A stretch of DNA of 39,353 bases from Novosphingobium sp. (GTDB taxonomy: Bacteria > Pseudomonadota > Alphaproteobacteria > Sphingomonadales > Sphingomonadaceae), in the NCBI GenBank assembly GCA_027311705.1, contig DAICYJ010000053.1, forward strand, positions 1-39,353. The letters are read 5' to 3'. Made by a program: the position numbers and the translations under genes. The notes beneath the pieces were generated by a model. The model saw only the letters and a program-made list of their open reading frames with translations. It was not told where the DNA came from and searched no databases. This document shows positions 26,803 to 27,989 of this stretch, piece by piece. Within the stretch, counting starts at the first letter, position 1, and each line of letters opens with the position of its first letter.

Positions 26803-27486
26803 ATGTCCTTCACCCTCATCACCGCCAACCGCAATTATTCGAGCTGGTCGCTGCGCCCGTGGGTGCTGATGAAGGGCTTGGGCATTCCCTTCGCCGACCG
26901 GCTCGAACCGTTCACCAAGCCGGTGAACTACGATGACTTCCGCGCCTTCTCCCCCACCGGCCAGGTGCCAGTCCTGATCGACGGCGAGACCACGGTGTGG
27001 GATTCCCTCGGCATCGCGCTCTATCTGGCAGACCGCTACCCCGCCGTCTGGCCCACCGACCCAGCCGCCCGCGCTTTCGCGCAAAGCGTGGTCACCGAAA
27101 TGCACGGCGGCTTTTCGGCGCTACGCAACGATTGCACCATGAACGTCGGCGTCCGCGTAAAACCCCGCCCGATGCGCGAAGCCCTGCTGCGAGACGTCGC
27201 CCGCGTGCGCGAAATCCTCGAACAAGGCCTGACGAATTTCGGCGGACCCTACCTAGCGGGCGAAACCTTCACCGTGGCCGACGCCTTCTATGCTCCGGTC
27301 GCCTACCGCATCCGCACGTATGGTCTGGACGTGGGCAAGGGCCAGGCATGGGTCGACCACATGCTCGCCGTCGAACCCATGCGCCAATGGGAAGCCGAAG
27401 CGCTGGCCGAAAGCTGGCGCGAGGAAAGCCACGAAGCGGAGCTTGCGGCGGCTGGCGAGATCGTGGCGGATTATCGGGTGGGGTGA
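26803..27486 (+). CDS. Glutathione S-transferase family protein (second copy)
   Basis: MSFTLITANRNYSSWSLRPWVLMKGLGIPF..., GQVPVLIDGETTVWDSLGIALYLAD; shares the N.NYSSWSLR motif with the GST at 12584-13249. Confidence 0.93.
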   Translation: MSFTLITANRNYSSWSLRPWVLMKGLGIPFADRLEPFTKPVNYDDFRAFSPTGQVPVLIDGETTVWDSLGIALYLADRYPAVWPTDPAARAFAQSVVTEMHGGFSALRNDCTMNVGVRVKPRPMREALLRDVARVREILEQGLTNFGGPYLAGETFTVADAFYAPVAYRIRTYGLDVGKGQAWVDHMLAVEPMRQWEAEALAESWREESHEAELAAAGEIVADYRVG

Positions 27487-27516
27487 GGCCCCAATATACA
27501 CATCTCAAAACCACCC

Positions 27517-27548
27517 CGTCGCCCCGGGCTTGACCCGGGGCCCAGCTT
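27517..27548 (+). repeat. Palindromic repeat family B, copy 1 (left flank of GIY-YIG gene)
   Basis: CGTCGCCCCGGGCTTGACCCGGGGCCCAGCTT; 8-bp perfect stem GCCCCGGG/CCCGGGGC with CTTGA loop. Confidence 0.92.
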
Positions 27549-27564
27549 CCCTTCAACTCGGCTG

Positions 27565-27864
27565 ATGGATCGGGAACAACGTGGCGGCTGGGTCTACATC
27601 ATGGCCAATCGCTATCGCGGTCCGATCTACGTCGGGGTTACCGCAAACCTGCCACAACGGATCTTCCAGCACCGCGAGGGTGGCGGTTCAGAGTTCTGCG
27701 CCCGCCACAACTTGCACAGACTGGTATGGGCGGAGCGCGGCGACACTGTCGAAGACTGCATTGCTCACGAAAAGCGCGTGAAACGATGGCGGCGTGAATG
27801 GAAGTTTGCGTTGATCGAAAAGGCAAACCCGGATTGGGCGGACCTCTACGATTTTCTTGTGTGA
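27565..27864 (+). CDS. Small single-domain GIY-YIG endonuclease
   Basis: GGWVYIMANRYRGPIYVGVTANLPQRIFQHREGGGSEFCARHNLHRLVWAERGDTVEDCIAHEKRVKRWRREWKFALIEKANPDWADLYDFLV: GIY (VYI), YIG (YVG), conserved R and E. Confidence 0.95.
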   Translation: MDREQRGGWVYIMANRYRGPIYVGVTANLPQRIFQHREGGGSEFCARHNLHRLVWAERGDTVEDCIAHEKRVKRWRREWKFALIEKANPDWADLYDFLV

Positions 27865-27883
27865 TCGGGCATTGCGCCGAAAC

Positions 27884-27915
27884 AAGCTGGGCCCCGGATC
27901 AAGTCCGGGGCAACG
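27884..27915 (-). repeat. Palindromic repeat family B, copy 2 (right flank, inverted relative to copy 1)
   Basis: Plus strand AAGCTGGGCCCCGGATCAAGTCCGGGGCAACG. Its reverse complement matches copy 1 at 29/32 positions. Confidence 0.92.
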
Positions 27916-27957
27916 TAGGTGTGAGGCCCATGGGGTGGAAATACCATCCCCCAGTTT

Positions 27958-27989
27958 CGTCACCCCGGGCTTGACCCGGGGTCCAGCTA
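27958..27989 (+). repeat. Palindromic repeat family B, copy 3
   Basis: CGTCACCCCGGGCTTGACCCGGGGTCCAGCTA; 29/32 to copy 1; stem ACCCCGGG/CCCGGGGT intact. Confidence 0.92.

Follow-up and report, generated by a model that had tools for sequence, protein, structure and literature searches.

The window, a stretch of 39,353 nucleotides of Novosphingobium sp. DNA, includes a short gene coding for a GIY-YIG nuclease, located between two inverted copies of a 32-bp repeat (Table 1). The initial annotation had described this arrangement as a 300-bp gene with the CCAGCTT sides of both repeats pointing inward and a third copy further out, and the coordinates and sequences of all these elements were confirmed. 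DNA folding predicted the same structure for each copy, a 4-nt tag (CGTC or CGTT), an 8-bp stem and a 5-nt loop, with fold energies between -10.3 and -11.4 kcal/mol (z -3.0 to -4.4). The unpaired tags of the three copies are CGTC, CGTT and CGTC, CGTT being a one-base variant. When the 32-mer pattern was searched with up to three mismatches, 100 shuffles of the window gave 0 matches; these shuffles and the control genes described below ruled out chance or GC-driven palindromes as the source of the repeats. The core 19-mer occurs seven times in the 3.2-Mb genome bin, three times at the window GIY-YIG gene and four times in inverted pairs, some of them imperfect, whose members lie 60-90 bp apart.

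Table 1. Features of the GIY-YIG locus in the window
Feature	Position	Strand	Remarks
Left CGTC-tagged REP, CGTCGCCCCGGGCTTGACCCGGGGCCCAGCTT	27517..27548	+	Tag CGTC, stem 8 bp, loop CTTGA, tail CCAGCTT; gene-facing
GIY-YIG nuclease gene, 99 aa	27565..27864	+	Pfam match, AlphaFold2 model, alignment
Right REP, inverted copy	27884..27915	-	29/32 identical to left REP; gene-facing
Third REP copy, solo	27958..27989	+	42 bp outside the unit, adjoins a femAB-like gene
Proposed mobile unit REP-GIY-REP	27517..27915	+	Minimal ends

The product of the gene matched PF01541 (GIY-YIG) with an E value of 1.5e-10 and, according to Pfam, consists of a bare GIY-YIG domain. Searches of defence, phage and NCBIfam libraries gave no family assignment. 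The protein was modelled with AlphaFold2 (pLDDT 89), and structure comparison showed that the modelled fold resembles those of UPF0213 (BH0048) and of the Slx1 and UvrC GIY-YIG domains. The residues that match the GIY-YIG active site are kept (Y11, Y22, G24, R32, H36, E69 and N88), and Y22, G24, R32, E69 and N88 were invariant in a 50-sequence alignment. The closest solved structures were 1zg2 and 1ywl by sequence and 1zg2 by fold. The UPF0213/YhbQ-like proteins have the same fold and size as the window protein, but they form a separate sequence group that is 31-38% identical to it. Comparison with other members of the clade gave dN/dS values of 0.06-0.12, with dS near saturation, which at the sequence level indicates purifying selection on the window gene with respect to its clade. 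Frameshifts or stops break the gene at L048, L286, G109:C7 and G016:C7, and the disrupted copies in L048 and L286 remain between intact REPs. Members of the family in AP027312, AP027319 and AP027322 carry the label 'excinuclease ABC subunit C' despite being bare GIY-YIG proteins ~99 aa long.

The repeats were compared with the CGTC superfamily of REPs described by Di Nocera, De Gregorio and Rocco in 2013 (PMC3733652). REPs of this superfamily have an unpaired CGTC or TGTC (or CCTC) tag, a stem of 8-9 bp, a loop of 4-5 nt and mostly a CCA tail, and they are found predominantly as head-to-head dimers, mainly in Alphaproteobacteria; Novosphingobium aromaticivorans is named among the carriers (PMC3733652). 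The window repeats agree with this description in tag, stem (8), loop (5) and tail (CCA), and the inward orientation of the copies, both around the gene and in the short pairs, corresponds to the head-to-head dimers. A-T pairs at both the first and the second stem position were not found: the gene-flanking copies start with G-C, and the third copy starts with A-T followed by C-G. We filed the repeats under the CGTC REPs by tag and geometry because this trait is a statement of frequency ('almost invariably') and not a criterion (PMC3733652). Across the family, a CGTC or TGTC tag adjoins the stem at 90 of 97 loci, compared to 9% of control positions, and the stem measures 8-9 bp in 79/96, the loop 4-5 nt in 92/96, and a CCA tail is present in 49/96. 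In 2013, the CGTC REPs showed no association with transposase genes and were apparently without a dedicated transposase, and GIY-YIG genes were unmentioned (PMC3733652). While those authors had no enzyme, here a cognate gene family lies inside the dimers. In some genomes the common sequence reaches ~40 bp past each REP, and in the G003 copies (L274-L279) this outer sequence includes the complementary arms GCGGACGT and ACGTCCGC. Di Nocera et al. describe REP dimers in H. neapolitanus that are enclosed by outer palindromes (PMC3733652). A search of 378 kb for one form of the GCGGACAT-type outer motif, which is found beside several REP-B units, showed no enrichment near REPs, and outer inverted arms were in no clear excess across the family.

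An enrichment of the repeats at GIY-YIG homologues had been anticipated from the window and was borne out in a survey of 65 GIY genes from named genomes, which belong mainly to Alphaproteobacteria and in smaller part to Gammaproteobacteria and other phyla. Inverted-repeat flanks with a score of at least 18 were found at 80% of these genes, compared to 1.8% of 382 control genes, which were the other genes in the same loci (Fisher p 1e-47), 3.1% of short control genes and 0/515 random intervals; ~20% of the homologues had no detectable repeats. The rates at control genes ruled out terminators or generic intergenic hitchhiking as the origin of the association. When the window genome and its order were considered, 24 of 27 GIY-YIG genes had inverted flanks with a score of at least 20. 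The window genome has two further short GIY-YIG genes, each flanked by a different palindrome, and paralogues within one genome bear different REPs. The same layout, each time with its own repeats, was found at the homologues of Neisseria, Azospirillum, Aeromonas and Sinorhizobium, and a looser version at that of Planktothrix. The Neisseria gonorrhoeae homologue, flanked by CGTC-1 repeats, is 46% identical to the window protein over 86 aa.

The type of repeat and the protein that it surrounds vary together. REP similarity tracked protein identity (Mantel rho 0.41, null maximum 0.086), and the result was unchanged after removing pairs with common neighbours (29/4560), which ruled out common ancestry of the loci as the cause of the covariation. 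At loci without common neighbouring genes, the median REP similarity went from 0.52 at protein identities below 45% to 0.97 above 75%. On a tree of 96 proteins, short in columns and with its deep forks unresolved, REP type changed 23 times, compared to 53.5 times when shuffled, and the proteins with the CCCCGTGCTTGACACGGGG REP type form one clade (support 100/95). The REPs were then counted in 150 genomes of the genus, with gene subfamilies A and B assigned by identity in the search table. The repeat was present in 17/17 genomes with the matching gene subfamily and in 64/133 without it, with means of 19.1 and 3.2 copies per genome, respectively. Co-occurrence gave Fisher values of 1.2e-5 for gene A and REP-A and 1.6e-11 for gene B and REP-B, p-values that overstate independence because the 150 genomes are mutually related. 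Genomes with gene A only had means of 15.8 REP-A and 1.1 REP-B, those with gene B only 6.3 and 5.8, and those with neither gene 2.5 and 0.6. Thus, in these 150 genomes the copy number of the repeat follows the matching gene subfamily. Equal abundance of the repeats in genomes lacking the gene, which the initial annotation had named as a refutation, was thus not observed, although REP-A is widespread in genomes that lack gene A and abundant in some with no detected gene (19 copies in G004, 14 in G024).

The genes next to the window unit, GST and femAB, are not adjacent in the relatives compared. At the femAB side, examined in 30 loci including that of the window, the REP-GIY-REP unit was found only in the window and in the relative G088, which also has the third REP copy; G084 keeps the REPs with the gene absent, and most relatives have unrelated sequence. 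These results, together with the presence of homologues with the same repeat elsewhere, indicate that the gene is not simply inherited vertically at this locus; vertical inheritance without the repeats was among the refuting outcomes named in the initial annotation. Among the relatives compared, none had an exact empty site corresponding to the window unit.

Further evidence on mobility came from the sister subfamily, in genomes carrying REP-B units. G003 has two full units that are 97.6% identical and occupy different loci, as well as four short REP-B pairs, and G063 has three full units at 89-90% identity, also at different loci, and two short pairs. In these two genomes, and more weakly in G064, the short pairs consist of both ends of a full unit with the middle missing and with varied break points; one of them matched a full unit over 45 bp at 98% and 112 bp at 99%. 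Most of them have their best match in the full copy of their own genome. The short pairs contain gene remnants with different deletion points and, therefore, those loci formerly held a full unit. As deletion derivatives of a gene-bearing unit, they tie the gene and the REPs into one unit, and in sharing both ends with the gene-bearing copy they exhibit a trait of insertion sequences and MITEs. No such derivation from the gene unit was visible for the short REP-A pairs of the window genome.

In Azospirillum (where the site lies between sufB and sufC), Sphingobium and Sinorhizobium, close relatives lack the unit at the orthologous locus. Three orthologous sites without gene or spacer hold one palindrome, built from the outer arms of both REPs. 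Slippage between the short direct repeats of the stems suffices to produce such collapsed palindromes, and an enzyme is not required. Collapsed REP palindromes were recorded in L251 compared with L252 and L259, in L087 and in L091. A clean empty site attributable to a single event was not resolved, as the absent sites were collapsed palindromes or unrelated sequence. Target-site duplications are a general feature of insertion sequences that HUH elements lack; none was found here, and direct repeats at the unit ends were no commoner than in mismatched pairs. A 12-nt direct repeat (11/12) surrounds the window unit at 27480-27491 and 27918-27929; it was rejected as an insertion mark, since mismatched pairs give the same kind of repeat and the family-wide pattern was indistinguishable from chance.

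These findings are probably best explained if the gene, together with the inverted CGTC-tagged REPs on its two sides, constitutes one autonomous mobile unit, of which the short pairs are non-autonomous derivatives. We infer that movement is brought about by the nuclease, which would recognize, bind and cut the hairpin of its own cognate REP. The substrate would probably be DNA in single-stranded form, made accessible at replication or on uptake, and the cut would be located at or beside the REP. Copying or relocation of the unit to new sites could then fall to host repair or replication, with the short inverted REP pairs taken along in the way that RAYT transposases take REPINs. GIY-YIG enzymes hydrolyze DNA rather than transesterify, and we know of none that rejoins DNA. 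Since there is no transesterification, host functions would be needed for strand transfer and completion. A broader proposal, to which we give slightly less than even confidence, is that CGTC REPs, which make up one of two large REP superfamilies, are the ends and relics of an unrecognized class of autonomous elements, whose sole protein is a GIY-YIG nuclease acting on its own hairpins with no covalent transposase intermediate, and that a second, untagged palindrome class may pair with a sister GIY-YIG family.

The initial annotation had suggested that the GIY-YIG family mobilizes these hairpins in the manner of RAYTs. Mobilization gained support from the deletion derivatives of the sister subfamily, and the enzymatic part of the suggestion stays at the level of what we infer. 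Like the window unit, the REPtrons and REPINs of the RAYT/REP systems place a small nuclease gene between inverted REPs that are cognate to it, include short REP pairs that are non-autonomous and occur as several families per genome, and target duplication was not seen here either. However, RAYTs belong to the HUH/tyrosine enzymes, form a covalent intermediate and act on GTAG REPs, while this system combines GIY-YIG with CGTC REPs, and the HUH motif and Y1 catalytic tyrosine of RAYTs are missing from the window protein, which is a GIY-YIG by Pfam and fold. We do not claim membership in the RAYT group, and the likeness that we suggest is restricted to the way of working.

Because completion would be left to host repair, the main rival is homing into existing REP pairs, where the nuclease cuts pairs that arose otherwise and repair from a gene-bearing copy inserts the gene. 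GIY-YIG is a classical domain of homing nucleases, the termini of full and short units are identical, and gene-free sites can still hold a collapsed REP palindrome, all of which would agree with homing. Nonetheless, the gene remnants, with their differing deletion points, point to loci that formerly had the full unit, and the common sequence of ~40 bp outside the REPs in G003 looks as if the whole unit moved, and we consider homing unlikely. A host function is somewhat less likely still. It would make the protein a domesticated Ssn-type single-strand nuclease without self-mobility, and the REPs its recognition sites, which steer or limit DNA uptake and recombination. A 2025 Nat Commun study by Chenal and colleagues is said to describe Ssn proteins as GIY-YIG single-stranded DNA nucleases that cut cognate repeats in Neisseria and elsewhere, and Neisseria Ssn reportedly modulates natural transformation. 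The N. gonorrhoeae homologue with its CGTC-1 flanks, which we take to be Ssn, and the purifying selection on the gene are consistent with such a role. On the other hand, the patchy presence, the several paralogues per genome with their own REPs, the shifting loci, the broken copies and the deletion derivatives look selfish. A selfish element and a host role can coexist.

The gene could also be a bystander among REPs that gather in permissive intergenic regions or act as terminators. Although the usual place of REPs is downstream of coding regions (PMC3733652), the 40-fold excess over other genes, the match between REP type and protein clade and the gene-bearing deletion derivatives make a passive association highly improbable.

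In comparison with the proposed mobile unit, Ssn shares with the window protein the small GIY-YIG domain, the cognate dispersed repeats and the Neisseria homologue, but it has reportedly been described for single-strand cutting and transformation, not as a mobile unit; to our knowledge, that work includes neither a mobile unit with deletion derivatives nor a link to CGTC REPs. Recognition of the repeat by the enzyme may thus be already known from Ssn. Full-text searches, whose scope did not reach the 2025 Ssn paper, found no literature joining GIY-YIG to REPs. The novelty supposed in the initial annotation is narrower in that the enzyme family is presumably Ssn and the repeats are the CGTC REPs of 2013. 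The identification of the repeats as CGTC REPs, the family-wide covariation and the autonomous and non-autonomous unit structure, which amounts to a REP/MITE life cycle, appear to be new. The origin and spread of CGTC REPs have been open since 2013, when no enzyme was linked to them, and a candidate is now supplied. With a cognate gene inside the REP pair, covariation and deletion derivatives, the question can be tested directly, using a 99-aa protein and a 32-nt oligonucleotide. Should the unit move DNA, GIY-YIG would be added to the small set of chemistries known to power mobile elements in bacteria; if the nuclease only cuts, many natural enzyme-hairpin pairs of differing specificity are at hand.

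The sister UPF0213/YhbQ-like family is a possible second case of pairing between GIY-YIG proteins and palindromes. A different palindrome class (CCTGAGCyTGTCGAAGG or GTGTCGAGCGAAGTCGAGAC) flanks 7/15 of the UPF0213/YhbQ-like loci sampled (G000:C49:4143-4382, which is L009/L304, and L295-L302). Close homologues (74-78%) with weaker CGTC-type inverted flanks were found in IMG/VR contigs filed as viral (L042-L046), and Sphingobium sp. DEHP117 (L101) has a tandem array of three REP-GIY-REP units with near-identical spacers between them.
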